A stretch of 64,000 nucleotides of DNA, taken from Paraburkholderia sp. BL10I2N1. GTDB lineage: Bacteria; Pseudomonadota; Gammaproteobacteria; Burkholderiales; Burkholderiaceae. The position numbers and the translations under genes are program-made. The notes below the pieces were generated by a model. That model saw nothing but the letters and a program-made list of their open reading frames with translations, did not search any database and had not been told where the DNA came from. Where the stretch lies: NCBI RefSeq assembly GCF_004361815.1, contig NZ_SNWA01000004.1:316915-380914 (forward strand), in the 5' to 3' direction. Positions 32,171 through 50,495 of the stretch are shown piece by piece (within the stretch, counting starts at the first letter, position 1; every line of letters begins with the position of its first letter).

Positions 32171-33355
32171 TTAACTGGAAAGAAGGCGATCCATCTCGCG
32201 GATCAGTTGTCCTACGTCGCCCGGTTTAGGCATCCGGAGATGCGCGATATCGTCCCGCACGGGCTTGGCGAGCCTGCAAACCTGCTCGGCGCAGATTTCG
32301 TCCGTCGTGGTTGCCACGAGCTTGCCCAGCTTGCACATGCCGACGATGTTGTTGTACTCGAGCTCGTCCGGATCCATCAGCATGACACGCGTCTGGTCGA
32401 TGGGGCGCGCAATCTTGCCGTTGTTCAAGGCAGCTTCCCGCTGCAGCTGGCTGCTGAACCGTCGAATGACTGACAGCCGTCGCTCCTCAAGCCAAGGAGT
32501 CAATGTCTTTACGCACGCTCGCCAGTATCGACGTCTGATCCGGTTAAGCGCGTCATCGCGGGCCTCGGGGCGGCCATGCTCTGCCATGTAGGCGTCGTTG
32601 AGCACGTGGGTTGCCTCTGGTGCTGCATTTGAGCAGGTTCGCATGAGCCAGGACCGGTTGCGCCATCGCGACGGCGTGTCGTTCATCAACTGCTGTAGAT
32701 GAGCGATGATATTGACGATCTGCGGCTCGCTCATCTGCATTATCCGTTCTGCGAGCTCCACATCGAAGCCAGCGAATTCAGCGACGATAGCCCGCGACAA
32801 TCTGGTCGTTCCCGGTCCGGGACGCGACAGCATGCGCAGGGAGACATACGCGTCCATCTCATCGGCTGAGAGACCTCCGTCGAACGTGATTACCTGAACT
32901 CCCCCTTCCCGTTCGTCTCGCGGCAGTGATTCCTCATGCACGCCGAGCACAATGTGAACGTTACCGTCCCCTGTGCCAATGGACCGAAGAAAAGTGCTCC
33001 CGTACCGTTCAATGTTCTCGACTCCGGAAGGTCCGTCAGGCATGAGAATAACGGCGCTGCGACGGTCCGCCTGCAGCAGGATCAGTTCGGCCGCCGTCAC
33101 ATGCTTGCGGCCGAAATGAACCCCGACGTCCGCCGCGATGTCAGTGCCGCCACTGATTTTGAGCGTAACGATCCGTTCGATATGTCCATGCCTGAGTCCA
33201 CGCTGGACCCCCTCCCATGTGCCGGGCAAGGTGTCGATGGGAAGGTTTATCCACAGTAGTCGAGAGCTCGCGGCCGTCTCTTCGATGCGCGTGACGAAGT
33301 CGCATGGTCCTGGCAGATTCCAGTACAGTTCGGGAACGATAGTTGGCTTGTCCAT
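32171..33355 (-). CDS. fourth gene of the pPIWI-RE operon: accessory protein of unknown function
   Basis: A 394-residue protein whose ATG lies one base after the stop of the giant pPIWI-RE gene (TAAGATG), so its synthesis is almost certainly coupled to it. Residues about 1-160 look like an alpha/beta P-loop-type core: strand LLWINLP, strand SAVILMPDGPSG at a Walker-B-like position, and strand NVHIVLGVHEESLP. No Walker A lysine motif is visible, so it may be a degenerate ATPase partner. The C-terminal half is helical (ERIMQMSEPQIVNIIAHLQQ, then many Arg/Leu repeats). I know no family for it. It could regulate or dock on the ATPase part of the neighbouring protein. No membrane segment is present. 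Confidence 0.75.
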   Translation of the reverse strand: MDKPTIVPELYWNLPGPCDFVTRIEETAASSRLLWINLPIDTLPGTWEGVQRGLRHGHIERIVTLKISGGTDIAADVGVHFGRKHVTAAELILLQADRRSAVILMPDGPSGVENIERYGSTFLRSIGTGDGNVHIVLGVHEESLPRDEREGGVQVITFDGGLSADEMDAYVSLRMLSRPGPGTTRLSRAIVAEFAGFDVELAERIMQMSEPQIVNIIAHLQQLMNDTPSRWRNRSWLMRTCSNAAPEATHVLNDAYMAEHGRPEARDDALNRIRRRYWRACVKTLTPWLEERRLSVIRRFSSQLQREAALNNGKIARPIDQTRVMLMDPDELEYNNIVGMCKLGKLVATTTDEICAEQVCRLAKPVRDDIAHLRMPKPGDVGQLIREMDRLLSS

Positions 33356-33356
33356 C

Positions 33357-36300
33357 TTATCTGGCAGTGAGAAGCTCGAAGTAGATTTCCGGCACAGTCC
33401 AGGTGCCACCAGCGCCTTCCTGAAGAATGCCCATCCAGTGGAGGAATTCCATCTCAGCCCGGGCCACGCCGAGCATGTCACGCACATCGTCCACTTCTGC
33501 CGACAAGCGAGGTGCTCCCTTGATTGTTTCGAGGAAGGAGTTCACAGCTTCGCGTCGCTCTGGCGCGAAAGTCGCCGGGAGATTGACGCGGCGGTAGAAC
33601 TCATCCAGATTTTCTCCAAAGGCCCGCTTCGCGAGATCAGGCGCCCGGAGCGCGTCGTCAACAGTCATGGTCGCGCTGCACACACGCTGCACTTCCTTAT
33701 CGAATCCGCACGATGCCCTGATAAGGGCCGATAGCGCATCGGAGTTTTCCGACACCTCGGAGTTTTCCTGCAGACGGAAGTAAACGGCATCCTCGGTCCA
33801 CTGGGGCAGCGGGACGACCCGCCAGCCAGCCGCGTCAATTTTCTTCGCCTCGATAGCCTGCGCAAGCTCGAGTGCGCGCTCCGGCATCGCGAGCAACGCG
33901 AAACGCACGTCGAGGTTCTGCTTCGCGGCCTTCTGGGCAGCCTGCACGAAGCCGGGAATGTGGGCAGTGTTCCAGGCTGCCGGACGTACTGCCACAATGC
34001 GTCTGACCGGGTGCGCTCCTCTGTTTCGACGCAAATTGACCAGATAGTCATTGGCGGAAATCGGGCCAATACCCGGCATCATCGTGTAGACGCCATCCTG
34101 GCCGATCTTCCATTCGTCTCTGCCGGCCGGTTTGTTCAGTTCCACGATCCCGCTCAGTTCATTTCCTGTAAGCACCAGCAGTTCGCCGTCCGACGAGTCC
34201 ATGTAACGACGCACCCAGGCGACCGGGAAAGGAAACGGGATACTGCTCGTGCCGTGATCCATGGTGACACGTCTCTCGCCGCGGTTACGCGTTTCCTCCG
34301 GCGGCTCCTTGGCGAGCTCGTCGAGCTTGTGGGCTACCCGATCGGCATCGCCCATCATCATGGCAATGTTAGGGTTCCGTAGCACATAGCGCGTGTTGAC
34401 CCGCTCCAGCACGTTGAGTTTGATCATTTCCTCAAGCAGGGCCTCGTAGACGCCCGGCCCGGCGTTCGCGAAATGGGTCGGTACAAGGGTTTCGCAAAGA
34501 TCGCTGATTTCCGAGATCGTGAGGCCTGCGTATGGGCCCGACGCGCTTTGGGAATAGTAGACATCCGCAAGCAGGAGCGCGATCGCCTTGTAGCGTTTGT
34601 CGAGATTCAGGTTCAGTTCGAACTTGTGGCGCAGTTCACTCAGCAACGAACTGTCATTCTCGACCGCATCCAGATCGTCTGCGCTGATATATAGCGGCGG
34701 CTTCGCATCCTGACGGCGGTTCATCAGCCGGTCGACAAGGCTCTTGCAGTAAAGCTGGATGAACGCCGGATAAAAGTTGCAAACAGACAGGATGCGCAGT
34801 GGAAGATCCTCCTCGCTATGCGAAAAAAGGAAACCCATGGCTGCCAGCGGCTTGGTGATGAGACGGATACCACGCTGGATGTCGGACGCAGAACTGAACG
34901 GTTCCAGTGCGATCGTTTCCGCCTTGCCGAGCACCGAGTTTTCCTCGGAGGTCATCCGCGTCATGTTGTGAAGGCCCGCGATCACGTAGCGGATGTGGCA
35001 TGCGTGATGAAGGTTTTCGACCATCTGCTGGAGACTTCGGACAAATCCGACTTCTCCCTTCGCGAGCCGTAACTCCCGCCCCATCAGTGAGTCGGCTTCA
35101 TCGATCAGCAGATAGATGGATTTCAGGTCAGTCCTTCCCTGGACCTCTTTCTCGATCCAGTCCCTGATATGCTGCCACTGCGTCGGTTGCCCCGACATCG
35201 GGCCGATGATTTTCCGGGAAAGTAGATTCCGGTACACGAAACTCCATGCAGCATGCACATGACTCGTCGACGAGTCGATCGTATCCATCGAGATATACAC
35301 CGCGGACATGCCGGGCGTACTTTGCGTCTCAAGTTCGACTTGTGCAAGGAGCGAGGACTTCCCGAGGCGACGCCCGCCGTAGAGAACGCCCAGACTCTTC
35401 ACATCGCGAAGCTTGGCGAGCTCGACCTGACGCCCAAAGAACATCTCCGTTGGCACCGGGCGGCCACCGTAGTCGTCGTACGGATTGGTATTGAAGCTCA
35501 GCATGCCGACCCGCATGAGCGCCTGCAGGCGCTCGCCAGGATGCAGCGCGACATATGCCACCAGTTCGTCATCGATCAGCAGCGCCGGCGCAGCGCCGCA
35601 TACACGAGCCCGGCGCGTCATGTTCAGACGCGCACGGGCGAGCACGACGGTCGGGGTTCCGCCAATCTCATGCATGAGCTGACGCAGACCATTTTCGGTC
35701 GAGTGACCGAACATCATGAATCCTTGAATGTGCACAGCCCGTGACCCAAGCACGGGCGGTATAAACATCTCGTCGTCAGCCGTCGTGGGGAACGTGAACG
35801 AACGGTCTGGCAGCACGAAGCGCAAGCGGTTTGTGCGGCCGTGCTCCGGAATCGTCGACGGTGTATGGTTGATCCCCAACAGGTGAAAAACGGTTTCCAG
35901 TTGCCTGCTATCGCCGGAGAGCTTCTGGCGTGGGCCTACGAACAGATCGAGCCACGCTCTGACGAGCTTAACCGCCTCATCCCGCTCGTCGCTGGAAAGC
36001 GCCTTCAACCATTCCGGATCGTCTTCGGTAACTGGTTGCTCAAGCGCCGTACACAGTGCGTCCAGCGGCGATTTATTGCTATGGACCGACTGATGGACCC
36101 GGCTCATGAACTGGTCGTAGTCCAACGCTACATCCGCACGGCCTCCAAGACGAACCGGAAGCTTGTGCGTTGCCTTCAGAAGCGCAAGTGCATCGTGAGC
36201 CGTGCGCAGGCTGGCGGCGTTGTCCGACTGCAGCATGGCGCGAATGCGCTGGATATCCTGGGAAGATGCAAGTCCCCGGTTTGCCTCAGCATATCCGTTG

Positions 36301-39300
36301 AGATCCTCTTCCAGCCGTCTGGCGACTTCGTTCAGTCGCGCTGCCAGCGGCATCAGGACACGATGACGCAACACTGCTGCCGCCTGAGGAAAGTCCGCAT
36401 ACATAACGCCGTCTGCGGAGGGGTGACCAATGCCCTTCTCCGGGCGTAGGGAGTCCTGCATTGCCTCGATCACACGCTGCATGCTGTTGGCCTCGTTCTG
36501 TGTCAGGGCAGATAGCGTCATCGCATGAGTGACCCGCTGTCGGGCCCTTTGCAGTTCTGCGCTGAAGGCGGTCTTGCGCTGGTTGTAAAGCCGAAGCACG
36601 GGCGCGTCGCCAGCGGTGAGCATGGAGCGCGGGAGGCACGAGTCAATGTGGAAGGCGGGGATGAAGCGCTGCGCCGCAAGGTGTTGGCGAAGCGCTTCTT
36701 TCAACGCCTCATCTATACTGTCGTCGTCTGCCCCGATAGATAGTCCTTCCCCCGCCCATCGCCCGGTTTCTTCAAGGATTGCGGCGGGTACGCAAAGTGC
36801 CGGCGTGTGTTCGTCAACCGGGGCGAGCACGGGCATGAGATCGCGACCGAGCGGCGCCTGAATGAGCAGCTTCTGCTTTTCCTGCGGGATACACGCGGGG
36901 GCCTGATTGTTGTCATAAAGCCGCAATGCGCACTTGATCGCCGAGATAGCTGCATCACGATAGAACGCTTCCAGGTTGCCTCGCGTTGCAATCGCGGTGA
37001 TCTCCACCAGCGAGTCCTCAAGATGCCGGTGCAGAGTCGCGAGAAAACTCAGCGTACTTTTAACGAGCTCGACGTTCGGGTTTTCCTGGCGCCGTGCGTG
37101 GTCGAGATAACTCTCAATGAATTTTCTTGTGACTTCGATGTTCTCGATCGCCCGAGACCTGAAAAGGCCATCGGGACGGGTACGTTCGCCGAGTTTGCGA
37201 AAAATTTCATCGACCATCGCCGCAGGCTTATCCATCTTGCGGCGCGCTTCTTCGTAGTGTGCACTCACCTTGTCCGGCGCGCCTTTGGTAATGCTCTCAA
37301 GGCATGAGCCAATCGGACTCCTCGGACTGAACATCTCCTCATGCATCGCCTTGAACCCGCGATGGTTCCAGCTTGAGTAAATCTCGGGTGCTGTTTTCCA
37401 GGTCGTGGCCCGGTGCTGAAAGCGCTGCAGTTCATGCTTCAATGCTTCTTTGTCGCCAATCTGCGAAACGAGGAACATGTCCCGGGTCAACTGCAGCCCG
37501 CGCTGGCGAATCGTGTCAATGTGTTCAATAAGCGCCCTGAGCCGCGGATGACCAGTCAGCGGAGCGCTGATCGCATGGCCGATGTTCCACTGGATGTCTG
37601 AACTGTCAAAAAGCATGCTCGAGAGACCGGCCGCAAGCACGCCAAGCGCGACCGATGCGGAATCGGTGAGGCTGCTGCCTGTCAGCGACTGCGTGATGAG
37701 CATCTCCTTGAGGGCCGGGTCCAGCCGTGTTTCGAACTCGAACTGGCAGTCCATCCTGTACAGAGACTCGACCAGCGCATGCAATACGACGTAGTGGGTA
37801 TTGGTCTCAGTGGGTACCATCTCTCCAAGAACCGGCTTCATTGCCTCCACGTGCACGGTGGCAAGACCATAGAGCCGTCGCCCGACAAGACGGTGCAAGA
37901 CGGCTGAGTGCTTCTCGACGAACTGATGCGCAGTTTCCAGCTCTTCATCGAGGTCGTCCGAAGCCTGATCGGTCGCGGGCACGACGGTGTCTGGCGCCGT
38001 CGAATTGACGCCGAGTTCATGGGCTGCATCGCTGTCTGAGAAGGACTGGCCTGTGTGCTCAGACAAAGACTCACCTGCGGCCGCGCCATTCTCACTTACA
38101 GATGAAAGGCCAACGGCAGTGTCTTCGACAGGAACGTCATTGTCACTCTGCTCTGGCACGGAAATCTCGTGCCGGACTTCCGACTCTACCAGCATGGTCT
38201 CAGCCAGATCGGCGTCACCGTCTCCAGGAAAAACTGGCTCCCTCATATCGACTGCCGGTGCAGGTTCGTAGGTCTCGGGCGACGTCGGGACCGCGGGCTG
38301 AGTCATGATTTGTTCTATCACCGCGGCCGCCTCGCTTACGTCCCCGCCGACGTCGCTCAACGAGTCAATGCCCGTATCTGTTGCCATCGTAAAGCAAGGG
38401 CTCTGAAGCACAAGCCCCTTCAGCTCCTCGGCGCTCCTCAGCATCGAGTCGACCGTCTCTGACAAAATCCGGTTGCGCTTCTGCCGCTCCGCGAGTACGG
38501 GCGTGGACGGCATGCTCTCGATCTTCTTCATCTGTGAGTCGAGAGCCTCGATGTCGCCGACAAGCACATCGATGCGCGCGATGCTTTCTTCGGCGACGTC
38601 CATGTCCTCCAGGTCCTCGACGCAGCTCACGGCTCCCAACCCGAGCTGCAGTTCGAGCGGCTTTATCTTCGACAGGAGATGCTGGCTACGCTCAAGCAGC
38701 GCCAAATGACGTTGGCGTGCCTGCTGGGCAGCATTTTTTCGTTCGAGCGCCCGGCGGTGCATCAACTCAAGTGTGACGAGAAACTCATTGATTTCGGCAA
38801 CAGATTCCGAAAATTCGGTGGTGCCGGGTTCAAGCTTCTGGACCTGCGTTGCAATTCTTGACCTGATACTCAGGAAAACGGCATCGTCAGATGAATCGCC
38901 GTCTTTGATGGAGGTCTCGGCAGCCTCTGTATTGGCGTGCGCCATCTGTATCTCCCGTAGCTGCGGTGTTGCAGAATCTGCGTGTTCAAATGAGTCGGTC
39001 TGCCCGGCATCTGCCAGTGACTCGCGCGGGACGGCATCTGCCGGCGTGCTTGCGGCTAGCGAATCCTCGTTGGTGTTCACAGACACCCTGCCCTCGGTGG
39101 CGGCGAGGCTGTCAACTACTGCCTGCATCTCAGGTTTGGGGCGACGCCTGAGGATGGTCTGAAACTTGTTGAGATGGTCGCACTGCGCAATGGCATCGTT
39201 GACCGCGGACGCGACGTCGAGGTAATACTTCAGCGCCTCCTCGGTCAATGGTCCGGGAATATCAGTGATATTTCCGATTACGGCATCGCGCCAGTCACCG

Positions 39301-42300
39301 ATGGGGTATTGGGCCACCAGGAAAATCAGCCAGCCCATCAGCTCATCATGACGTGTCTGCTGTGCCCATCCGGCTAACTGCTCGAGCACTGCCGGCTTGA
39401 GCGAGTGGCCCAAAAACTGTTCTTCGGTCGGTCGACCCGGGTTATATGCAGTATTGATGAGTTCGTGCAGACGCCTGAACGACAGCCCTCCAATGAGATC
39501 TGAGGCTGGCGCAAGTGCCATGGCTGACTGCGGCACCTGGAGCAGCGCCCCCATCCAGTCGAGCAGTTCACTTTCACGAGGCATGGGCGCACGCTCCCTG
39601 ACCACGCCCATGTCGCGTAAAGCCTTCCAGTAAGAAGCGGCCTTTCTGCGAACCGTCGTGTTGAACTCGCCGAATATGCCTTTGGTTTTTATCCAGTATG
39701 GCAACTCGACACGAACGCGCACCCCGGCATCCTGGTACATCATGCGTTGTCCGAGCCGGCGGACTCTCAGATCGCGTGAACCGTGCAACGTCGGCATCGG
39801 CGTCAGCTTGACGCGTGTCAGGAGATCGGTCTCATCGCTCGCGGTCGCTGCCCGGTTGACCTCGGGCAGTTCGACCTCATCCTGCGCTGTCAGACTGTCA
39901 GTTTTCGCTGAATTTTCAATGAGGCGCGAGACGTACGTCCGTGCACCCGGCGACTCATTCTTCTCTTCCGCTGCATCGCCGCCATCAGGCGGTGTTGCCT
40001 CATTCGACGGCGGTGGATCGTCATCCTCATCCTCAGGAAAGCGGATCACATAGTCTTCGATCTTGCGGCGGAAGAACAGCGGCGCAGGTAGCGTTGTCCA
40101 GTCATCATAGTGGGCGTAGCCGATGCGAAGTCCCATCACCAGCATGGCGACATTCCGGGCCATCACGCCTTGGGGCGCACGCAGTACGGTAATTTCCATA
40201 CTTGCGGGCAACGACGCATCCCATGCTGCAGGATCCATCATTTTCTGCGCGTATTCCTTCGCTCCCTTCCCGATCTGTTGCATGCGCGGAGTCGCGCGGT
40301 AGCAGGAAAGGCCGCGTTTTACCTGCACGGTCTTGGCATAGCCCATCGTCGCCATGAAATGACCATAGCCGCGTTCGATGGCCGGACCGTCTTCTGACAA
40401 TTCAACGAGCGATTTGCCGGTGCTGTAATAGGCATCGATGAACGTTTCGCCCGAATGGGTGCGCTCGTCACTGCTTAGCCACCCTTCGTAGGTGACCTTC
40501 ACCTCCGAGCGCAACGACAGTGTGTCCGCACCACGACGCAGCCGCACGAAGCTCATGTCCTTGAAATGTGCGAGATCAGCGCTTCCTAGCTTTACCGTAC
40601 CGCCCGTTGTCAGATCGGTGTCGCGGATTCCGCGCCACAGACCTGCCACGCTCTGCCAGTCGATCAGCACCACAGCACACGGATCGGTCTCGTGGATGGA
40701 AAGCAGCGTTTCCCTGATCGCATCCTCGAAGATGCTTTTCAGCCACCGGTCATCTCCTGCGTGCATCTGCCGCTGACTGCCTAGCCACTGCAGGCCCGCC
40801 GACAGCGGTTTCCATTCGGATCGTTGCGTACCCTTGCCTCCCTTGTAGATAAACTGCACCTCAGTGACACCGGTCTCGATCACGAGGCGCGTGTTTAGCA
40901 GGAAGGTGAAGCCGGTCTCTCCGCTGCCGAATCTGGCGCGGGAGCGTATGGCCTGCAGACCGTAGATACACCGAGGCATATGCTCCGGCGACAATAGTTG
41001 GGCCGCGAATTCGCGGGTGCCGAAAATGATCCCCGAGTGCGCGAGGAAGACGTCCAGGAGCGCGCTTTGGGTACGGTGCAGGAATGCCTGTTCGGCGGCC
41101 GGATCATCAGGCGCCTCGATAGGCAAAAGGTGGTGAACGTTCGCACCGATCGACGACATCGCGTGGATGCCAGCGTAATAATTGACACCGTCCTCGTTGC
41201 GCTGCCTGTACTTGTCTGGCGCGCAGATCAGCGCGATTACGGGTCGCGTGCCGCTGACCTGCCTGATCGTCGTCGTCGCCAACTGCCAGCGTTTGACGCG
41301 CTCGTCGAAACGCCCACGCGCATTCAGGTTTACGCCGTCCAGATCAGCGCGCAAACCGTGGGTACCAGCGGGCAGCGCCTCAAGCTTTATTTCTACGGCG
41401 TCACCAAAAAGCGTTTGAACTGAGTTGGCAATGATTTCCTGCTCGCGTGCGAGGTCGCACAATACCCACAATATCGGCTTGTTATCACCGTGAGAGAGCT
41501 TCAGCGCCCGTATGTTCTGTTCACGGTAGTCTGCGATCGAAGTGATGCGCTCGGTAGTACCTTCATCGCCCGACTCATCGTCGTCTACATCGACTTCTTC
41601 CGCATCAGAGCCGGACACGAGCGAATCACCGGCGGCACCGAATTCGAGGTCTGTCAGACGCAACATTTCCTGCAAGGGGCGCTTTTTCCGATTGATTGCG
41701 ATTTCGCGCAAGCCGATCGGACGCGAGGCGAGTGCGTAGCCGACGATTTCGCTAACAGTCTCCAGTAGTCGCGCTTCGTCGCCCTCGAAGACCGTCCGGG
41801 GAGAAACAAACTTGAAGAGCGTCGGCAATTCGGGGAGCCCTGCCCACCAGCCGGTGCGCTCGTCGAACTCCCTTCGACGCACTGCCTCCTCAAGCGTATC
41901 GGGAAGCGCGGAACGTGACTCGATCTGCGCCGCCGCGTAACCTTCGCCGAACTCCCAGCCCGTTTTTGCACGCTCCACCGGTATCATGACGGCGGGTCGT
42001 CCGGGGGCCAGCACGTATCCCGTGACACGCCTTGGCATCTTGCCATGGGCAAACGGCACCTTTTTCGCCCACACTCTTTTCATTGCCGAGACGCCCAGGA
42101 AAAGGTCGCGGCTGTATGGCATGGTGCTGACCGTCAGTCGTGCTACCATCGAGAAGACATCGTCACCCCGGGTTGCGCGTTGCGGCATTGACATCAGTTC
42201 GATCGCGTTGGATCGGCTCTCCGGACTGGCCACCAGTTCACATGCACCTAGCCCTTCGAAGAGTTCTTCGCCCATCAGGCTGCCACCGATGATGCGCACG

Positions 42301-42839
42301 ATGAGCGGAAAATCGGGCTGCCCGTCACTTTCGCGGATCAGGGGGGCCTCGATTTCGGTGGGCACAATCAGTTCCGACCGGATGGTGGCTTTCATACGGG
42401 ACGCAAGGCCGCCCATCTTGTGCCGCTCCGCCCAGGGCTCGACCTCGTTCATGAGCCACCGGCTGAGATAGCGTGCGATGCGCTCGCGCGTGGCGCTGTA
42501 GTTTCCGTCCTCACTGAGGTCTGGAAGCATCACGATCGCGCTGCCACGTCTGCCGTTTGCGTCGGGGAGCAGACCGAGGTCACGGTCAAGACGCACTATC
42601 TTGTCTAGCCCCGCCGTGAGAGCCGTGCGAAGCGACGTCACTGGCAGGTTCTTTTTCTCCTGCTTTGCGGACGCCAAGATCGCCGAAAAGCTGTTAAAGA
42701 GCTCACCGGAGAAGGAGAACTCGACCAGCGAAACTGCCTGCTTTAACCATTCGGGCGAAATCTTGCGACCGATAAGCATCGGCGCACGCACGGTATGACC
42801 GCCTACGCGGGTCCATGTGATTGTTTTCTCTTCAGACAT
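33357..42839 (-). CDS. giant pPIWI-RE protein with coiled-coil and STAND/ORC-like ATPase extension (3160 residues)
   Basis: Residues 1-935 look like a complete pPIWI-RE protein: an X-type N-terminal domain (LDRDLGLLPDANGRRGSAIV near residue 75), a MID-like strand NKPILWVLCDLAREQEII (about 450), and the RNase-H-like PIWI fold with AVVLIDWQSVAGLWRGIRD (Asp727), MSFVRLRR (Arg766) and YYSTGKSLVELSE, ending FFRRKIEDYVIRF. The rest is unlike a normal pPIWI-RE protein of roughly 900-1000 residues. It has helical regions to about 1200, acidic Ser/Ala/Glu-rich linkers (about 1210-1300 and 1470-1640), a coiled coil (about 1313-1400), long helical parts, a P-loop ATPase (FFGRQVELAKLRD, Walker A GGRRLGKSS with K2494, Walker B IYLLIDEAD with D2580/E2581) and a C-terminal region ending in a helix/wing-like fold. 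The start overlaps the helicase stop by 8 bp (ATGTCTGA). A guide-dependent nucleic-acid defence role is inferred from the family. Confidence 0.82.
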   Translation of the reverse strand: MSEEKTITWTRVGGHTVRAPMLIGRKISPEWLKQAVSLVEFSFSGELFNSFSAILASAKQEKKNLPVTSLRTALTAGLDKIVRLDRDLGLLPDANGRRGSAIVMLPDLSEDGNYSATRERIARYLSRWLMNEVEPWAERHKMGGLASRMKATIRSELIVPTEIEAPLIRESDGQPDFPLIVRIIGGSLMGEELFEGLGACELVASPESRSNAIELMSMPQRATRGDDVFSMVARLTVSTMPYSRDLFLGVSAMKRVWAKKVPFAHGKMPRRVTGYVLAPGRPAVMIPVERAKTGWEFGEGYAAAQIESRSALPDTLEEAVRRREFDERTGWWAGLPELPTLFKFVSPRTVFEGDEARLLETVSEIVGYALASRPIGLREIAINRKKRPLQEMLRLTDLEFGAAGDSLVSGSDAEEVDVDDDESGDEGTTERITSIADYREQNIRALKLSHGDNKPILWVLCDLAREQEIIANSVQTLFGDAVEIKLEALPAGTHGLRADLDGVNLNARGRFDERVKRWQLATTTIRQVSGTRPVIALICAPDKYRQRNEDGVNYYAGIHAMSSIGANVHHLLPIEAPDDPAAEQAFLHRTQSALLDVFLAHSGIIFGTREFAAQLLSPEHMPRCIYGLQAIRSRARFGSGETGFTFLLNTRLVIETGVTEVQFIYKGGKGTQRSEWKPLSAGLQWLGSQRQMHAGDDRWLKSIFEDAIRETLLSIHETDPCAVVLIDWQSVAGLWRGIRDTDLTTGGTVKLGSADLAHFKDMSFVRLRRGADTLSLRSEVKVTYEGWLSSDERTHSGETFIDAYYSTGKSLVELSEDGPAIERGYGHFMATMGYAKTVQVKRGLSCYRATPRMQQIGKGAKEYAQKMMDPAAWDASLPASMEITVLRAPQGVMARNVAMLVMGLRIGYAHYDDWTTLPAPLFFRRKIEDYVIRFPEDEDDDPPPSNEATPPDGGDAAEEKNESPGARTYVSRLIENSAKTDSLTAQDEVELPEVNRAATASDETDLLTRVKLTPMPTLHGSRDLRVRRLGQRMMYQDAGVRVRVELPYWIKTKGIFGEFNTTVRRKAASYWKALRDMGVVRERAPMPRESELLDWMGALLQVPQSAMALAPASDLIGGLSFRRLHELINTAYNPGRPTEEQFLGHSLKPAVLEQLAGWAQQTRHDELMGWLIFLVAQYPIGDWRDAVIGNITDIPGPLTEEALKYYLDVASAVNDAIAQCDHLNKFQTILRRRPKPEMQAVVDSLAATEGRVSVNTNEDSLAASTPADAVPRESLADAGQTDSFEHADSATPQLREIQMAHANTEAAETSIKDGDSSDDAVFLSIRSRIATQVQKLEPGTTEFSESVAEINEFLVTLELMHRRALERKNAAQQARQRHLALLERSQHLLSKIKPLELQLGLGAVSCVEDLEDMDVAEESIARIDVLVGDIEALDSQMKKIESMPSTPVLAERQKRNRILSETVDSMLRSAEELKGLVLQSPCFTMATDTGIDSLSDVGGDVSEAAAVIEQIMTQPAVPTSPETYEPAPAVDMREPVFPGDGDADLAETMLVESEVRHEISVPEQSDNDVPVEDTAVGLSSVSENGAAAGESLSEHTGQSFSDSDAAHELGVNSTAPDTVVPATDQASDDLDEELETAHQFVEKHSAVLHRLVGRRLYGLATVHVEAMKPVLGEMVPTETNTHYVVLHALVESLYRMDCQFEFETRLDPALKEMLITQSLTGSSLTDSASVALGVLAAGLSSMLFDSSDIQWNIGHAISAPLTGHPRLRALIEHIDTIRQRGLQLTRDMFLVSQIGDKEALKHELQRFQHRATTWKTAPEIYSSWNHRGFKAMHEEMFSPRSPIGSCLESITKGAPDKVSAHYEEARRKMDKPAAMVDEIFRKLGERTRPDGLFRSRAIENIEVTRKFIESYLDHARRQENPNVELVKSTLSFLATLHRHLEDSLVEITAIATRGNLEAFYRDAAISAIKCALRLYDNNQAPACIPQEKQKLLIQAPLGRDLMPVLAPVDEHTPALCVPAAILEETGRWAGEGLSIGADDDSIDEALKEALRQHLAAQRFIPAFHIDSCLPRSMLTAGDAPVLRLYNQRKTAFSAELQRARQRVTHAMTLSALTQNEANSMQRVIEAMQDSLRPEKGIGHPSADGVMYADFPQAAAVLRHRVLMPLAARLNEVARRLEEDLNGYAEANRGLASSQDIQRIRAMLQSDNAASLRTAHDALALLKATHKLPVRLGGRADVALDYDQFMSRVHQSVHSNKSPLDALCTALEQPVTEDDPEWLKALSSDERDEAVKLVRAWLDLFVGPRQKLSGDSRQLETVFHLLGINHTPSTIPEHGRTNRLRFVLPDRSFTFPTTADDEMFIPPVLGSRAVHIQGFMMFGHSTENGLRQLMHEIGGTPTVVLARARLNMTRRARVCGAAPALLIDDELVAYVALHPGERLQALMRVGMLSFNTNPYDDYGGRPVPTEMFFGRQVELAKLRDVKSLGVLYGGRRLGKSSLLAQVELETQSTPGMSAVYISMDTIDSSTSHVHAAWSFVYRNLLSRKIIGPMSGQPTQWQHIRDWIEKEVQGRTDLKSIYLLIDEADSLMGRELRLAKGEVGFVRSLQQMVENLHHACHIRYVIAGLHNMTRMTSEENSVLGKAETIALEPFSSASDIQRGIRLITKPLAAMGFLFSHSEEDLPLRILSVCNFYPAFIQLYCKSLVDRLMNRRQDAKPPLYISADDLDAVENDSSLLSELRHKFELNLNLDKRYKAIALLLADVYYSQSASGPYAGLTISEISDLCETLVPTHFANAGPGVYEALLEEMIKLNVLERVNTRYVLRNPNIAMMMGDADRVAHKLDELAKEPPEETRNRGERRVTMDHGTSSIPFPFPVAWVRRYMDSSDGELLVLTGNELSGIVELNKPAGRDEWKIGQDGVYTMMPGIGPISANDYLVNLRRNRGAHPVRRIVAVRPAAWNTAHIPGFVQAAQKAAKQNLDVRFALLAMPERALELAQAIEAKKIDAAGWRVVPLPQWTEDAVYFRLQENSEVSENSDALSALIRASCGFDKEVQRVCSATMTVDDALRAPDLAKRAFGENLDEFYRRVNLPATFAPERREAVNSFLETIKGAPRLSAEVDDVRDMLGVARAEMEFLHWMGILQEGAGGTWTVPEIYFELLTAR

Positions 42840-45800
42840 GCTGTCGGTCGTTCAGTAGGTTTTCAATTGCGCCCATGGGCACGGAGAAAGACTGGTAAAG
42901 ATTCTGGTAGCTCTCGCGCACGGCTGGATCGTGGTGCGCGAGACACTTTGCGAGGATCGTCTGCATCATCACAAGCATCGAGGTTCGGTCGTTGTCGGGC
43001 ATTCCCCTGGCAGAATTGGGCGCCCAGGCAGCATCCACGAAGTACACGAAGGCCGGGCAATCACCGCGCATCGCCCTCCCGATTGTCTGCAGGATCATGA
43101 TCATCTGGTCCGCCACAAATGGCTCCGCATACTCCCCTAATCTTTGCGCAACAAGTTGCATGCGCAGCAGATATTCAATGGTTGAGGACGTCCTGCGCCT
43201 CGCCTCGCGTAGCGCTCCCAGCGCCTCCTGCGTGGTGGCAAACTTGCGACGGTCGAACGTTTCCGAAGCCCTTCCGACGAGCCCCTGGATCAACTGCAGG
43301 CTGTCGCCGCGGGGGTGTGGCCGGGTAAGGAAAAAGAGTGACCCGATCATCGCCTTGTCGATCCGCGGGCCAAAGCGGTACACGATGTTCACGCCTCGGC
43401 CGATCGCGCTCATCGGGAAGATCAGCAGATCCCAGTTTTCGTCTTCGCCCAGACTTTCGACCTCTGAAGCGGTGACGGCCGCATCGTGAAGCGACCCGTG
43501 AATCTTCGGTTGCACGAGGTAGCGTACACGGCCGCGCCAGGATGGATGATTGGCGTAAATGTGGTCAAAGAGCTGCTCGCACTGTTCGTACGAGTTGACG
43601 ACAAAGGCCGCCTTGCGCCCCGCTCCGTCCACGACATCGTTGTTCAGAATCGCCTGCTCGACGTCGGAAAGTACGCCATGACGCAGCAGCTGATCGACGA
43701 TCGTTCTGAGGATGCGCTCCCTCTGCAGCAGTTTCGCGCCGCTGAAGCGCAACGGCATCTGCGTCTGCGGATCGAGCTTCGGGAGGAAGCAGTACCTCGA
43801 TTTCTCCCACCCGCTACCGGCGTTTGGACGGCGCAGAACGTAATGAGGTCCGACGCCAATGTGAAAGCTCGGGCTTTGCTCAAGCAGGGAGGTCGCACTC
43901 GTCATGAGTACGGCCATGCCCTCGCCCCGCTCCTTTCCGATCTCGATCATGCGCTGAGGGAGCAGGCGTGGGGTTCCGGCAAATCCCACGTGAGAAACGT
44001 CCACATTACCTTCCTCGCTGACGGTGTAGCGTATTCCGCTAAGGCGACCGATCAGTGATTCGGGCAGAACGCCGAGCTGGTCTCGCGAACAACGCGTCTC
44101 GAAGACGTTGTCGCTTACCAGCCCCATCGTGTTCATCAGGCGCAGGTGGGGAGCAAGACCAAAGTGCTGAAGGACGAGCAGCGTAACCGAGACGAGAAGC
44201 GTCGTATAACAGTAGAAGGTTTCATCATCGTGGCTGGTCGGCAGGCCGGGTACCGTGCGCAGCACTTTCGCAATGGCGTGGACGGCAGCCTCGTTGCCGT
44301 CGCGCTCCCACACTTCGATAGCATGAAGCAACCGGTCGTACAGGTCCCGGACCGCTTCGGTGCTCTGACTGGTAGCCTTTGCGGCTTCATCAAGCGTGCG
44401 GGCTAGGTCACTCATACCCTCATCTTCATCACCGTGAAGCGGTGTATGGCGAAATGCCACAACCTTGACGGCCGCATCGAATACACCTTCAAACGCCCGC
44501 CGTGCCTCCACGAACAAATCCCTTCTCGCGTCATCCCACTCGTCGTCAACCGCAAACATGTCCGAGATGATCGACAGCGACGTCAGCAGTACATTCGCAT
44601 GGGCCTTGCGAAAAGCAGGAGGGAGATGCAGCAGATGGGACACAAGTCTTTCCGTGGCACGTCCGAAGCGACCGGTCATCTCCAGCAGGGAAGGCACAGT
44701 AACGCCGGCCACGAACGCATTGTTTCCACGCGCAGCGGGATCGTGCAGGTCGCGGATCAACGTACTCCAGAGCGAATCGTAGTCGCCTGACAGTTTAAGC
44801 ATAGGTGTGCCGCGCCCGTCCAGATTGGTCTGGGCGCCGTCGCACTCGTCGACGACGAGTACATCAAAGGTCCGCGCCAGATACTCGAAGTGTCTGACTT
44901 CCGCATCGGTATAAAGTGGCGACACGCGGCGGTCCGTCGAGAGGATGTGACCGGCCCAGATCGTTGCGCTGCCGAGCATCCGCTCACCGTGCTGCAAGCC
45001 ACACACGGATGAGAGCGCGCATCGGTGCCGACGCGCACGCTTTCCTGTCTCCGGACGTTGCATCACCTGGAGGCACGGCGGGTTTGTGTGTGGAAATTCG
45101 ACGTCTTCGTCGCTGGCAAAGCCCGCAAGGGCGCAGTTTGTCGCGAAGAACGGCGCGATCTCGCGCGTGACTCCATAACCGTGGTTCTGGTTCGCCAGTG
45201 CGGTTGCAAAGTTGAGCACGTGTTTGGTACGTGCTGTCTCGCTTTGCCCCGAAAGAAGTCCAGCTGGTACTTCGTAGCGGGCCAGCGTCTCGATGAAGCC
45301 GCTCGCCACTTCGATAGAAGGGAAGAGGAAGCAGACCGAATAGCCCTGTGCTGACAGGTATCCTGCCAGCAAATGCAGGAGCGTGGTCTTTCCAGCGCCG
45401 GGAAGACCAATCAGATGCTTCAGTCCCGTTAGGTCAATAGCCTCGGCGAACACCAGTCCGTCGCTGCCTCGCTCCATGAGCACTGCCGTTGGGTTTCCCT
45501 GGGCATCGTGCAGCCGGTTAAACCAGCGGCTTTCCGAAGGCTGCTGACGCCCGGCCGTGACGTCGATGTCATCGAAACGTCGCGCAATCGCGATGAGGTC
45601 TTCCCAGCGTACCAGGCCCGGAGCCGTGCCGACGCGCTCCAGGTCGTACATTGGAGGTGCGGGAGGTGTAAATCCAAGCGGAGCGATGAGACCAGAATAG
45701 CCCTGATCGGCGTCGACCTCTGCGCGCCTGTCGGCAGCATGAACGGGAGGAAGTGCCCGAAGACGCAACGGCCTGATGGAGGTCAGGCACGCCAGTGCGA

Positions 45801-46176
45801 TCGTAATGTCTTCGGGAACGAGATGCGTCCAGGTTCGACTGATATTGAGGTTCTCATCGATCCGATATCGCTGCGGCAGTTCGTCTCGGACAGTTTCGTC
45901 GCCCCGGGACTTGCGCAGTTCGACCTGGCGGTAATGCTGCCGGTAGGCGTCTGACATCAGCTGTAGTTCGCTCAGCGTGCCCGGCGCGATTCCAGCGAGC
46001 CGGATATTTCGCAGAGCGAGCGCAACGTCCTCATTGAGCGTGTTTGTTACGCTCTCAAACCCCGCGGCGAGAGCTGGCATTGTTGCCAGACTGCTTTGCT
46101 TCAGAAGTTCGGAGGCGATGATGCACAGATAGTTAAGGCGGCTGACTCCGCTGAACGGCTGCAGGGGCTCACGCAT
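42832..46176 (-). CDS. DinG/XPD-like helicase of the pPIWI-RE operon
   Basis: A 1114-residue superfamily 2-type helicase. Walker A is IGLPGAGKTTLLHLLAGYL (K263), Walker B VLVVDECDGA (D443, E444), and motif VI QTIGRAMRGDC (Q1030, R1034, R1037). Between motifs I and II lie four cysteines (348, 368, 386, 392), the place where XPD/DinG helicases hold an Fe-S cluster; that assignment is inference. The N-terminal 240 residues carry a pPIWI_RE-associated (Z-like) region I cannot subdivide. DinG-type enzymes unwind R-loops and 5'-tailed duplexes. The start ATG 46176 overlaps the REase stop (ATGCGTGA); an upstream in-frame ATG at 46215 is less likely. It presumably opens target DNA for the PIWI protein. 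Confidence 0.82.
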   Translation of the reverse strand: MREPLQPFSGVSRLNYLCIIASELLKQSSLATMPALAAGFESVTNTLNEDVALALRNIRLAGIAPGTLSELQLMSDAYRQHYRQVELRKSRGDETVRDELPQRYRIDENLNISRTWTHLVPEDITIALACLTSIRPLRLRALPPVHAADRRAEVDADQGYSGLIAPLGFTPPAPPMYDLERVGTAPGLVRWEDLIAIARRFDDIDVTAGRQQPSESRWFNRLHDAQGNPTAVLMERGSDGLVFAEAIDLTGLKHLIGLPGAGKTTLLHLLAGYLSAQGYSVCFLFPSIEVASGFIETLARYEVPAGLLSGQSETARTKHVLNFATALANQNHGYGVTREIAPFFATNCALAGFASDEDVEFPHTNPPCLQVMQRPETGKRARRHRCALSSVCGLQHGERMLGSATIWAGHILSTDRRVSPLYTDAEVRHFEYLARTFDVLVVDECDGAQTNLDGRGTPMLKLSGDYDSLWSTLIRDLHDPAARGNNAFVAGVTVPSLLEMTGRFGRATERLVSHLLHLPPAFRKAHANVLLTSLSIISDMFAVDDEWDDARRDLFVEARRAFEGVFDAAVKVVAFRHTPLHGDEDEGMSDLARTLDEAAKATSQSTEAVRDLYDRLLHAIEVWERDGNEAAVHAIAKVLRTVPGLPTSHDDETFYCYTTLLVSVTLLVLQHFGLAPHLRLMNTMGLVSDNVFETRCSRDQLGVLPESLIGRLSGIRYTVSEEGNVDVSHVGFAGTPRLLPQRMIEIGKERGEGMAVLMTSATSLLEQSPSFHIGVGPHYVLRRPNAGSGWEKSRYCFLPKLDPQTQMPLRFSGAKLLQRERILRTIVDQLLRHGVLSDVEQAILNNDVVDGAGRKAAFVVNSYEQCEQLFDHIYANHPSWRGRVRYLVQPKIHGSLHDAAVTASEVESLGEDENWDLLIFPMSAIGRGVNIVYRFGPRIDKAMIGSLFFLTRPHPRGDSLQLIQGLVGRASETFDRRKFATTQEALGALREARRRTSSTIEYLLRMQLVAQRLGEYAEPFVADQMIMILQTIGRAMRGDCPAFVYFVDAAWAPNSARGMPDNDRTSMLVMMQTILAKCLAHHDPAVRESYQNLYQSFSVPMGAIENLLNDRQHV

Positions 46177-47365
46177 AACCCGATTCCTTTGAGCCGAGCC
46201 TGGCAAGCGCCTCACTGACGGTCAGGCAGGTGACGTCATCCCGGCCCATGGTCCGAGTGAGCCGGTACAGATACGAGGGCACTGATGCGACGTGCCAGTC
46301 CGGTATCACAAGCAGGCGCTGCGCGTAGTAAGCGAGGCCGCCGATGCTGCGCTTGAACTTCTGGCCGAGAGTCTCCGGGCTGACGTAGGTTTTGAGGTCG
46401 ATGCCTGTATCGCCCACTGCGATGTCGACTCGATCGCGAAACGGATAAAGTTCGGCTGGTGTGCCGCTCGCACGGAGCGCGTCATAAAGGCGAAGTTCGT
46501 CGATTCCCGGTTCGACCCAGTATTGCCGGATACCGCGTGCGACACGCATCACGGAACTGGCGGCGACGGATCGCGATGACCGCGCGGGATAGGTGGCAAC
46601 GCACGCGGCTGTACGGCAGACGAGCCCTGCTCGCCCCTTCTTCATTGCGTTTCCGCAGTGATCACAAATGGGAACCGTCCCGTCGACACACCACCCTGTT
46701 GGCACAGCCTCGTAAAATTCCCGCTGGATAATCAGCCACACACGGGCCGGCACCTCCTCCGTCAATCCGAGCTTGAAGTCGTCAAGATTGCACACAGGAT
46801 TGCGAACGACGAAGTCACGCACCTTCGTGTAGTAGGCGTTGGCCTGCCCTTCGGGATGACGGCTGAGGACATCCATGAACCTGGCGAATAGCTGTTCTTC
46901 GATCGCAGCCGTCATGCCGGTGAACCCTGCGGCCAGTTCCTCGGCCTCTGCTGTCGGAATGCCGTCGTCCGCGTGAATCAGCACCGTGTGATTGAGTCCG
47001 GCGTGCACGACCTCGGGAAGCGTCAACCATTCGCCCAATGGACGGGTGCACAGCGCCAGAAGATCATGGATTTCTGCGCCATGGTCGGGAAGACCCTGGA
47101 TAAGGCAGGCTCTCGAGATGGCACCCATTGCCCGGCGGTCATCGGGCCCCAGGCCGACCGGCGATCCATGCGTGCGGCTGGTCCCGGAGACCATTTTCCC
47201 TTCGAAAAGGGACATTCTCGCCAAGCGGATGACTAGCGCGGCCAGGCTGGCGATCAACCGGTCGTTGTTCGTCGATTCATGAAAGCCTGACTCATCGCCG
47301 TGTTCTGTTGCACCAGCATGCATTGCCTGCCGCATTTCTGCGGCACTCTCGGAGACATCGCGCAT
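46169..47365 (-). CDS. REase-fold protein with zinc ribbon (pPIWI_RE_Y-like), first gene of the operon
   Basis: A 398-residue protein. Residues about 1-220 are helical and unlike known folds to my eye. A treble-type zinc ribbon follows (Cys234, Cys237, Cys250, Cys255: CDHCG ... CRTAAC). The C-terminal part has a PD-(D/E)xK nuclease core: ELYPFRDRVDIAVG, then GIDLKTYVSPETLG (Asp323, Lys325), then a YYAQRLLVIPDW strand. This zinc ribbon plus REase arrangement and its position in front of a DinG-like helicase match the restriction-endonuclease-like gene of pPIWI-RE operons. It is probably the effector nuclease or a DNA-binding partner. The ribosome binding site before ATG 47365 is weak; starts at residues 11 or 15 are possible. 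Confidence 0.78.
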   Translation of the reverse strand: MRDVSESAAEMRQAMHAGATEHGDESGFHESTNNDRLIASLAALVIRLARMSLFEGKMVSGTSRTHGSPVGLGPDDRRAMGAISRACLIQGLPDHGAEIHDLLALCTRPLGEWLTLPEVVHAGLNHTVLIHADDGIPTAEAEELAAGFTGMTAAIEEQLFARFMDVLSRHPEGQANAYYTKVRDFVVRNPVCNLDDFKLGLTEEVPARVWLIIQREFYEAVPTGWCVDGTVPICDHCGNAMKKGRAGLVCRTAACVATYPARSSRSVAASSVMRVARGIRQYWVEPGIDELRLYDALRASGTPAELYPFRDRVDIAVGDTGIDLKTYVSPETLGQKFKRSIGGLAYYAQRLLVIPDWHVASVPSYLYRLTRTMGRDDVTCLTVSEALARLGSKESGYA

Positions 47366-48039: not shown

Positions 48040-49005
48040 ATGCCCCGCCCGGCCGCCGTTACCCCCGAACAGATCCGTTCCGCCGTGCTGTCGATGCTCG
48101 CCGAGGCCGGCGATGCAGCACCGCCCACTGGCGAACGCTTCCGCAAGGTCGTGTCGGTACGGAAACTCCGCGCGCGGCTCGGTGCGGGCGATCCGGCTAC
48201 CCTTGCGCGGGCACTCAACGCCGTCGAGGCCGAGGTCGTGCGCGCGGGACTCGCCGACATCGCGATGCCCGGCATTCCCGTCGAAATCGCCGAGCAGATG
48301 CGCGCGCTGTGGCAAGCGGCCGTGGCCGTGCAACTTGAGGACGTGGTGCGCCTGAAGGTAGATGCACAACAGGCGATTGCGGCGGCCGATGCGGCGCGCA
48401 CCGATGCCGAACTGCGCGTCGAACTGCTGCGCCAGGAATTGAGCGAGCTGCGAGCGGGGGTCTCCTCACGCGACATCGAACTGTCCGATCTGCGGGCCCA
48501 GAACGCGATGCTGCGCGAGCGGTGCGCGGCGCTCGATGCGGCAGCCCAGGAACGCCAGGCGCAACTCCACGCCGCGACAGCGGAGCGGGCGGCGGTTGAG
48601 CGCACGCACGCGGGCGCACTGGCGGACGTGCAACATCGGTACGAGGCGCTGTCGAAACAGTTGCTGCAGGAAACTGCCCACCAGCGCGAGGCCCTGAAAA
48701 AAGAGCATGCGCACTCCACGGCGCAACTCAAGTTCGCCGAGCGCCGTGTTGCCACGCTTGACGGCGAACGCGAACGGCTCGAAGGCGAACTCGCGAGCGA
48801 GCGCGAAGCCCGCCAGCAGGCGGTCGGCGAAGCGCTGGCGCTCAAGGCGATCAACGCGAGCCAGTATGCGCAGCTCGACGAACTGCTGCGCCTCGTGTCG
48901 GCACAGGAGGCCCGTCGCGCACCGGTGGCGTCCAGCCGTCTCGCGACCGCGAGGCGCACCACCGGCACTTCGAAGAGCGGCACGACTAAGCCCAGGAAGA
49001 CATGA
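48040..49005 (+). CDS. KfrA-like DNA-binding coiled-coil protein
   Basis: A 321-residue protein with a KfrA_N-type DNA-binding domain (VTPEQIRSAVLSMLAEAGDA, KVVSVRKLRARLGAGDPATL) and then an almost uninterrupted Ala/Glu/Gln/Arg-rich coiled coil from about residue 95 to 275. The tail is basic (RRTTGTSKSGTTKPRKT). KfrA-type proteins bind plasmid or island DNA and act in partition or regulation. AGGAG precedes the start. It overlaps the recombinase gene by 4 bp (ATGA), a pairing seen repeatedly on integrated islands in Burkholderia-like genomes (recollection). Confidence 0.82.
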   Translation: MPRPAAVTPEQIRSAVLSMLAEAGDAAPPTGERFRKVVSVRKLRARLGAGDPATLARALNAVEAEVVRAGLADIAMPGIPVEIAEQMRALWQAAVAVQLEDVVRLKVDAQQAIAAADAARTDAELRVELLRQELSELRAGVSSRDIELSDLRAQNAMLRERCAALDAAAQERQAQLHAATAERAAVERTHAGALADVQHRYEALSKQLLQETAHQREALKKEHAHSTAQLKFAERRVATLDGERERLEGELASEREARQQAVGEALALKAINASQYAQLDELLRLVSAQEARRAPVASSRLATARRTTGTSKSGTTKPRKT

Positions 49006-50495
49006 GCGAAACAACGAGCCCCGCCGACTGGATCGATGGCGGCATGACGCCACCGCGGCGGCTGCCGGCGGACACCAACGCGGCGCTCGCGTATCTGGCC
49101 GACACGCTCGGCCACGTCGTCTACACGCGCTGGACCCTGGCGGCGATCAAGGGCCGGTACGCCTCGCTCGCCGACGCGAAGGTGGCCCATCCCGCGGTCA
49201 TGCGGCAGTTGCTTGATCACGCGGTCGTGATCGAGTACTGGGATCGCGGCCGTGTGCGCACCGCGGCCATCGACGATGCGCCGACACCGGAGGCGGTGCT
49301 GCAACGCGTTCTGCATACGCAGCGGCGGCGCTTCAAGGTCTCGCCCGAAGCCGGGTTGCCGGCGGCGACCGGTGAGCCGATACGGGATACGACAGCGCTG
49401 GTCACGGTGCCGCAACCATTGATCGCGTGGCTTGCCCGGGCTGGACGCTTCGCGAATGTGGCGAGCGCAACCAACACGCTCGGCGTGGGCGACGACGCGC
49501 AGGCTGTCGCGCTCTTCCTGCGCGATCGCGCGAGCCGCTCGCCGCATACGCTGCGTGCATACCGGACCGAACTGCGGCGGCTGGTCACGTGGTGCGAAGC
49601 GCAGCAACTCGGTCCGCTGTCGGATCTCACGCGCCACGACCTGCTCGCGTACCGGCAGGCATTGCGCAAGCCCTCTCATGACGTCGTCGACGACAACAAC
49701 CGGACGGTGGCGGAAGCGACCCAGGCACGGGCACTCGCGGTCGTCGCGAGCCTGTTCCGCTACTGGACCGAGACCGGCTATCTGACCGCCAATCCGGCTG
49801 CAGGGCTCGTCCGTGGCGGACGCTCGCGCACGAGCTTCGCACCGCAACGGATGCTGCCGAGCGCGTTGCTTGCCGCATGTGACACGTGGGTCGCTGAAAG
49901 TTTCAACGACGACGACGCGCTGGTCGTCGCGCGGCGCCGCGCAATCTGGGCGCTATACCGGTACACCGGCGTGCGCCTGGTTGAACTCGTGTGGTCCGAC
50001 GACGCGCAGTTGCCGAAACTCGAGGTCGACCGCATCAACGGCATCGAGTGCTGGACGCTGCACGTGCTCGGCAAGGGTCGCAAGACGCGAGCGGTTCCGT
50101 TGCCGGGACTCTGCGTTCCGATCCTGAGAACGTACCGGCAACTGCGCGGCCTGCCGCCGCAGCCCAGTCTCTATGAGCATGCGGCACTGATTCACGGACT
50201 TAAGGGCGGCTCGCTGCACAGCTCCGGCCTCTACGATGAGGTGAAGGCAATCTTCATCGCGACGGCCGACCGCATCGAGAAAACCGATCATGCGGGCGCT
50301 GCGCGCCTGCGATCGGCATCACCGCACTGGCTGCGCCACGGCTATGCCAGGCAACTCGTGGTGGACCATCAGGTGCCATTGCCGGCCGCACAGGCTCTGC
50401 TCGGGCACGCGTCAGTGCAAACGACCGCGATCTACGCAAAAACCGACTTGTCGCAGTTGCGCGCCTTTGTGGACCAGACGTTCAGCGACAGTTGA
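49002..50495 (+). CDS. tyrosine recombinase/integrase
   Basis: A 497-residue site-specific recombinase. The core-binding (SAM-like) domain lies near residues 155-265 (DRASRSPHTLRAYRTELRRL ... SHDVVDDNN). The catalytic domain has the first arginine in RYTGVRLVELVWSDDA, the HxxR box in SPHWLRHGYARQLV, the second histidine in LLGHASVQTT and the tyrosine in TAIYAKTDL. The N-terminal 150 residues are an extra domain. It is translated with the KfrA-like protein and sits at the right border of the foreign block carrying the pPIWI-RE genes, so it is the likely integrase of that island. Confidence 0.88.
   Translation: MSETTSPADWIDGGMTPPRRLPADTNAALAYLADTLGHVVYTRWTLAAIKGRYASLADAKVAHPAVMRQLLDHAVVIEYWDRGRVRTAAIDDAPTPEAVLQRVLHTQRRRFKVSPEAGLPAATGEPIRDTTALVTVPQPLIAWLARAGRFANVASATNTLGVGDDAQAVALFLRDRASRSPHTLRAYRTELRRLVTWCEAQQLGPLSDLTRHDLLAYRQALRKPSHDVVDDNNRTVAEATQARALAVVASLFRYWTETGYLTANPAAGLVRGGRSRTSFAPQRMLPSALLAACDTWVAESFNDDDALVVARRRAIWALYRYTGVRLVELVWSDDAQLPKLEVDRINGIECWTLHVLGKGRKTRAVPLPGLCVPILRTYRQLRGLPPQPSLYEHAALIHGLKGGSLHSSGLYDEVKAIFIATADRIEKTDHAGAARLRSASPHWLRHGYARQLVVDHQVPLPAAQALLGHASVQTTAIYAKTDLSQLRAFVDQTFSDS

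Follow-up and report, generated by a model that had tools for sequence, protein, structure and literature searches.

A pPIWI-RE protein continuous with a STAND/ORC-type ATPase in a four-gene operon of Paraburkholderia

We analysed a stretch of 64,000 nucleotides (hereafter the window) from Paraburkholderia sp. BL10I2N1 (contig NZ_SNWA01000004.1), which carries four minus-strand genes whose ends overlap or nearly touch. The first three correspond to the three-gene pPIWI-RE system predicted in 2013 by Burroughs, Iyer and Aravind (PMC3702460). In the window, the third gene encodes a protein of 3160 residues in which a pPIWI-RE module is continuous with a STAND/ORC-type ATPase, and a fourth gene is coupled to it. 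We consider this operon a new subtype of the known predicted system. We propose tentatively, with a confidence just short of even, that the subtype combines a guided sensor, a portable ATPase relay and a HEPN-like ribonuclease (RNase) partner.

The operon and its fusion protein

Gene 1 (46169..47365, minus strand) encodes a restriction endonuclease (REase) of 398 residues with pPIWI_RE_Y and pPIWI_RE_REase domains (Pfam PF18154, 2.9e-15; PF18156, 8.6e-10; PADLOC PprRE, 1.6e-44). Its PD-(D/E)XK-type motif is intact (GIDLK), and the D..GID-x-K pattern was found in all eight aligned REases. Gene 2 (42832..46176, minus) encodes the DinG-type SF2 helicase of pPIWI-RE systems (PADLOC PprDinG, 9.9e-158). 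It is followed by gene 3 (33357..42839, minus), which was defined as the fusion by its open reading frame (ORF), Pfam, PADLOC and a homologue search, and by gene 4 (32171..33355, minus), the product of which, a partner protein of 394 residues, was characterised by structure model, profiles and gene context. A search of NCBIfam returned no family for genes 1, 3 and 4, and for gene 2 only weak matches below the cut-offs, mostly to P-loop ATPases. The order of an REase with its Y domain first, DinG second and PIWI third, all coupled, is that of the three-gene pPIWI-RE system, as a sequence-only reading of this DNA had recognised, and the pPIWI-RE, PprDinG and PprRE profiles agree with it. The junctions are, in gene order, ATGCGTGA, ATGTCTGA and TAAGATG, the first two flanking the DinG gene. 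They are as that reading described them (ATGxxTGA twice, then TAAGATG, taken as one unit), and such overlapping or near-touching junctions are consistent with a single transcription unit. Two gene starts had to be revised. The DinG gene had been given a GTG start at 46215, but it most likely begins at the overlapping ATG at 46176. The ORF, strand and coupling of gene 4 were as had been claimed, but it most likely starts at 33355, giving 394 residues, rather than at the longest-ORF start at 33487.

The first 935 residues of the gene 3 product (40035..42839, minus) had been read as a complete pPIWI-RE module. Pfam, PADLOC and alignment agree on this: the X, MID and RNase H domains occupy residues 56-315, 475-607 and 626-932, the MID (PF18157, 5.3e-14) and RNase H (PF13032, 2.1e-36) matches are both above their cut-offs, and the PADLOC PprPIWI match spans residues 52-940. 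The polypeptide was said to continue for some 2200 residues with a Walker A/B ATPase (K2494, D2580). Both of these residues proved identical in all 48 aligned sequences, as did E2581, the neighbour of D2580 in Walker B (534, 620 and 621 in model numbering).

The possibility that sequencing or assembly had wrongly merged two genes into the long ORF, which the sequence-only reading itself had raised, was examined by a full-length search with the 3160-residue protein. This search recovered 224 relatives at E <= 0.001 among 6146 candidates. Within the 120 relatives listed, 117 have at least 2900 residues and every one carries a G-x4-GK[ST] motif past residue 1500; the closest named relative among the matches listed is from Burkholderia ubonensis (87% identity). 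Plasmids of Bradyrhizobium, Azospirillum and Microvirga carry the fusion annotated as a single gene, and a viral contig encodes it in a single open reading frame. A few relatives (P0123, P0125, P0126 and P0128) are separate proteins of about 2170-2330 residues that start in or near the linker, which would fit an artefact, and for several relatives that are encoded separately the best alignment begins at residue ~1610-1650. However, the two split forms placed in the ATPase tree, P0125 and P0128, are nested inside the fused clade. We therefore rule out an assembly fusion and put its probability at practically nil. The architecture is real, but it is not unique to this genome, being shared by a family of 224 relatives. 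A PDB sequence search with the fusion returned no match.

Whether the fused PIWI module cuts nucleic acid was considered by alignment of 21 fused and two short forms, with PsPIWI-RE, the tested enzyme, outside the alignment. PsPIWI-RE of Pseudomonas stutzeri carries out RNA-guided DNA cleavage with D525 and D610, both of which it needs (PMC10991935). Like the window protein it is a pPIWI-RE module encoded beside a DinG gene and a nuclease gene, but the fused family lacks the presumed strand-1 Asp of the RNase H domain. The window protein has Q629 at this presumed catalytic position and retains D727 and D740. The strand-1 position is Q in 16 and S in five of the 21 aligned fusions and D in none; at position 727, 19 of them have D and two have E. 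R766 and R768 are present in all 21, and at residue 882 there is E in 10 of them and D in the other 11; the published R639 and E718 lie outside the alignment. Since the strand-1 Asp is absent and PsPIWI-RE requires both its aspartates, the fused PIWI module is probably a nucleic-acid binder and not a cutter.

The ATPase arm and its stand-alone relatives

Beyond the PIWI module, translation, alignment and a structure model define acidic linkers and a long arm (residues 936-2444; 35508..40034, minus), of which residues 1961 to ~2320 are modelled as helices by AlphaFold. The arm leads into residues 2445-2846 (34302..35507, minus; AlphaFold model mda58c7147587), with the codon for K2494 at 35358-35360. 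In the model this region forms an AAA+ core followed by a winged helix, the arrangement of the ORC/Cdc6/STAND fold. By Foldseek and structural comparison, the core resembles ORC/Cdc6, TnsC, MuB, the NB-ARC domains of NLRs and PABY2304. The expected match to STAND, ORC and AAA+ ATPases is thus found at the level of the model. A C-terminal wing-like region had also been described. The winged helix is there, but it ends near residue 2846 and a further alpha/beta and helical region of ~310 residues follows (residues 2847-3160; 33357..34301, minus; defined by the model, with a tail length as in stand-alone ATPases). By predicted secondary structure, this last region resembles a second, degenerate NTPase-like domain. 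A PDB sequence search with the arm gave five matches, the best of which was a short Walker A match to PH0952 (0.0004).

The model allows a different division of labour, in which a phage product is sensed by the helical arm, in the manner of Avs- and NLR-type STAND proteins, and PIWI, DinG and REase form the effector end. The likeness of the fold to NB-ARC domains, the long helical arm itself and the presence of Avs3 in the Foldseek list (8dgc_B, rank 32) speak for such a sensor. However, Avs3 matches poorly (TM-scores 0.18 and 0.12, root-mean-square deviation 26.1) and the PIWI module looks non-cutting. In addition, the sensor repeats of NLR and Avs proteins are C-terminal to the ATPase, unlike the helical arm of the window protein, which is N-terminal to it. 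We regard an ATPase-arm sensor as rather unlikely.

The arm also exists without PIWI. A search with residues 1461-3160, filtered by length, gave 18 proteins, five of which have 1758-2037 residues, no PIWI part and alignments to residues ~2270-3017. An arm-profile scan of a genome collection gave at least 400 confirmed places, of which the best 80 were examined. These include nine verified fusions; two loci, L005 and L007, were cut or partial and not counted, and three (L038, L073 and L079) had no ATPase ORF. The remaining ATPase ORFs have 1750-2130 residues in 58 of 66 cases, and the PIWI profile matched none of the 66. The distance from Walker A to the C-terminus is 650-720 residues in 63 of these 66 and in all nine genome fusions (673-705 in the latter). 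As ORF length and post-Walker A tail match and PIWI is absent from the 66, gene 3, judged by sequence, fuses an entire pPIWI-RE protein to an entire ATPase of the stand-alone type.

The partners of the ATPase were clustered by sequence similarity, and one or two representatives of each cluster were scanned with profiles. A DruE/YprA-helicase cluster lies upstream of the ATPase in 18 of the 80 loci, four of which have gene 4. Other partners are a beta-CASP metallo-nuclease (10 of 80, with the cluster member L032_-1_738 excluded), a DinG-DpdF helicase (5 of 80), an SbcC-like SMC protein (2 of 80; L016 and L021) and an SNF2-PLD helicase (2 of 80). In the beta-CASP and SNF2-PLD loci, another enzyme stands directly downstream of the ATPase in the place of gene 4. 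Three loci (L014, L017 and L080) combine a DruE3-like helicase, the ATPase and gene 4; the L014 helicase, the one profile-scanned, matches DruE3 over residues 6-2004 of 2012 (PADLOC). These three appear to be Druantia-III-like loci with the ATPase as the second component (DruH was not searched for there). In L016 (1300-13716), an SbcD-like calcineurin-like phosphoesterase, the SbcC-like SMC protein, the ATPase and gene 4 form one run. On IMGVR_UViG_3300048575_000222 (L092, 270-13455), a contig classed as viral, a DEAD helicase and a separate MZB-domain protein, which are YprA-like parts, accompany a stand-alone ATPase and gene 4.

The fourth protein and its pairing with the ATPase

The model of the gene 4 protein (m31fee53d9932, mean predicted local distance difference test score 94.9) shows two parts, a STAND/ORC-like fold in residues 1 to ~261 and a helical domain in residues ~262-394. 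By fold comparison of the model the first part is of the STAND/ORC type, but without Walker A: the G-x4-GK[ST] motif is absent from the window protein and was found in the N-terminal domain of only one of 35 members. The helical domain contains R367-x4-H372, a HEPN-like R-x4-6-H motif present in 35 of 35 relatives. The HEPN_Swt1 profile gave weak matches in eight of the 35 members (best E 0.0042) and none for the window protein. Taken together, the gene 4 C-terminal domain is probably HEPN. Searches of gene 4 against the ATPase arm by profile and of the N-terminal part of the beta-CASP partner against gene 4 yielded no match, and a PDB sequence search with gene 4 gave two chance-like matches.

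The occurrence of gene 4 was followed with its profile, which matches 38 of the 80 genome loci, four plasmid loci and both viral loci. In 34 of the 37 matched loci having an ATPase ORF, the gene 4 frame opens at most 190 nucleotides from the ATPase end. Gene 4 was present in all 13 verified full-length fusions (L002, L003, L004, L006, L008, L009, L010, L020, L024, L082, L083, L088 and L091), in 27 of the 69 genome loci that are neither verified nor cut fusions, and in none of four short pPIWI-RE loci (L084, L085, L089 and L090). Of these fusions, L006 belongs to Noviherbaspirillum autotrophicum and L082 to a Bradyrhizobium elkanii plasmid, both with a homologous four-gene locus. The short forms were taken from plasmids because the six proteins found in a protein search for short pPIWI-RE (827-1609 residues, 42-94% identical to the query) were close to the fused family. 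The distribution shows that gene 4 goes with the ATPase rather than with PIWI. Among the partners without PIWI, gene 4 occurs only with the YprA and SbcC-like ones. One plasmid locus with an unannotated ATPase match, L086, had no gene 4 match.

A purely structural role for gene 4 was also considered. Here the ATPase would be an ORC/TnsC-like loader of DinG and REase, and gene 4 a structural inactive-STAND protein with a HEPN-like part that is no RNase. The best structural neighbours of the ATPase do include ORC/Cdc6, TnsC and MuB, and stand-alone ATPases adjoin DNA helicases and nucleases, many without gene 4. However, neither the R nor the H of the R-x4-H motif varies among the 35 divergent proteins compared, a constancy that a purely structural part would not require, and we consider such a loader quite unlikely.

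Gene 4 varies in the alphaproteobacterial fusions. Its protein is longer (525-552 residues) in all six (L010, L020, L024, L082, L083 and L088), and the one scanned with profiles, from L010, has an extra C-terminal AAA_33 kinase-like domain. In the three of these loci that are on plasmids, the REase gene has a divergently oriented gene for a WYL-domain regulator upstream of it. The fusion with gene 4 is found at 3182-13899 of L091, from IMGVR_UViG_3300025116_000059, a contig classed as viral.

Proposed mechanism, setting and relation to known systems

The operon, its domains, the fusion, the ATPase fold and the partnership are read from sequence, model or context, and on this footing the earlier suggestion of a distinct subtype, in which a guided sensor is joined to a STAND/ORC-like switch, is sustained as an architecture by the profiles, the ORC/Cdc6/STAND model and the 224 relatives. 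We propose that the N-terminal pPIWI-RE module, probably non-cutting, would hold a guide and recognise invader nucleic acid. The covalently attached STAND/ORC ATPase arm would turn this recognition into an ATP-dependent switch, as its fold and conserved Walker residues suggest. Two outputs may follow. One would be DNA attack by the DinG helicase and the PD-(D/E)XK REase. The other would be the release or assembly of the gene 4 protein, an inactive-STAND/HEPN-like RNase, leading to RNA attack or dormancy; its RNase action is presumed and its pairing with the ATPase comes from gene context. The ATPase would thus be a portable relay that is used without PIWI by other DNA-processing machines, some with a HEPN-like partner.

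Several points weigh against this proposal. The guide, the target, the switching, the RNase action and the defence role are all inferred. So is the inactivity of the RNase H domain, for which PsPIWI-RE was not part of the alignment; moreover, both short pPIWI-RE forms aligned also lack the strand-1 Asp (S and T), such that its loss is not specific to the fusions. The HEPN assignment draws on the motif, the helix layout and weak profile matches (best E 0.0042). HEPN-fold neighbours were absent from the 50 matches listed in either gene 4 fold search; the matches fell mainly in residues 1-281, where dynein AAA+ entries tied with STAND entries. Gene 4 was not found in 42 of the 80 genome loci, some of them cut by contig ends, including all the beta-CASP (10), DinG-DpdF (5) and SNF2-PLD (2) loci, so the HEPN-like partner is less widely shared than the ATPase. 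In the available stretch of the viral locus L091, neither DinG nor the REase was matched convincingly.

A wider reading is that the ATPase is a portable decision module common to at least six unrelated machines (pPIWI-RE, YprA/DruE helicases, DinG-DpdF helicases, SbcC-like, SNF2-PLD and beta-CASP), each of which it would make an ATP-gated, two-stage defence. It would bring its own inactive-STAND/HEPN RNase to pPIWI-RE, some YprA/DruE loci and one SbcC-like locus, and in pPIWI-RE it would have become part of the guided protein itself. We hold this to be possible but lean against it, the loci without gene 4 having lowered our estimate.

The operon may be carried by an integrated element, as is suggested by two adjoining genes divergent from it, one for a KfrA_N DNA-binding protein (48040-49005, plus strand; PF11740, 1.1e-16) and one for a tyrosine integrase (49002-50495, plus; PF00589, 2.2e-11). 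An empty-site comparison found no island borders, the flank matches in relatives being many and divergent. Searches for the RNase H family of the PIWI module in 144 genomes of the genus and in a class-level sample of 369 genomes recovered it from the source genome only, indicating a sporadic distribution. This distribution, the carriage on plasmids and viral contigs and the defence-type partners of the same ATPase also argue against a role in DNA repair or replication restart, with an incidental integrase neighbourhood. Such a role gains some support from P. stutzeri, in which deletion of the PIWI-RE gene beside dinG is reported to have raised ciprofloxacin sensitivity (PMC10991935), but we judge it very improbable. 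As for the origin of the fusion, the beta- and alphaproteobacterial fusions fall apart in the ATPase tree (59 sequences chosen from loci and proteins in hand), although a single clade of the fusions and two split forms was not rejected (AU p 0.148). The PIWI tree, from which L090 was excluded because its pPIWI-RE gene is in pieces, showed three groups and did not resolve the number of fusions. By these trees, one or two fusion events would both be compatible.

Compared with the predicted three-gene system, the window shares gene order, overlapping ends and Pfam and PADLOC profiles (PMC3702460). The short unbroken pPIWI-RE proteins that we fetched have 918-1073 residues, and the window protein adds a whole ATPase part of 2200 residues and a fourth gene. 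The main text of PMC3702460 does not contain the word "ATPase", and the fusion described there is N-terminal, zincin-like and rare. Druantia III and III-like systems share a DruE/YprA-like helicase cluster with 18 of the 80 ATPase loci. In type III the published partner, DruH, is J/Ig-like and binds ATP as a dimer; the portions of this literature consulted make no mention of such an ATPase or HEPN partner (PMC12458937, PMC13192584). DruE and DruH profiles had no match at E <= 1 in the four window proteins, and the operon is thus not a Druantia III system. BREX and MoxR-vWA systems likewise contain a Walker-less STAND domain, which pairs there with PglZ or MoxR-vWA (PMC12839542, PMC7159879). 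Gene 4, in contrast, pairs with a giant Walker-bearing STAND/ORC ATPase and adds a C-terminal HEPN-like domain. In the parts of the open-library literature searched, no description of the fusion or of the ATPase-HEPN pair was found.

If our proposal is correct, a single polypeptide would link a PIWI-type guided sensor to an NLR-like ATPase switch, and gene 4 would be named as the candidate for the ATPase's own effector. The function of pPIWI-RE has been largely open since the 2013 prediction, and this subtype supplies defined residues in K2494, R367 and H372. The ATPase would also be a common part of several predicted immune systems that are now filed apart, so that work on it and on the HEPN-like protein paired with it would bear on several of these systems at once.

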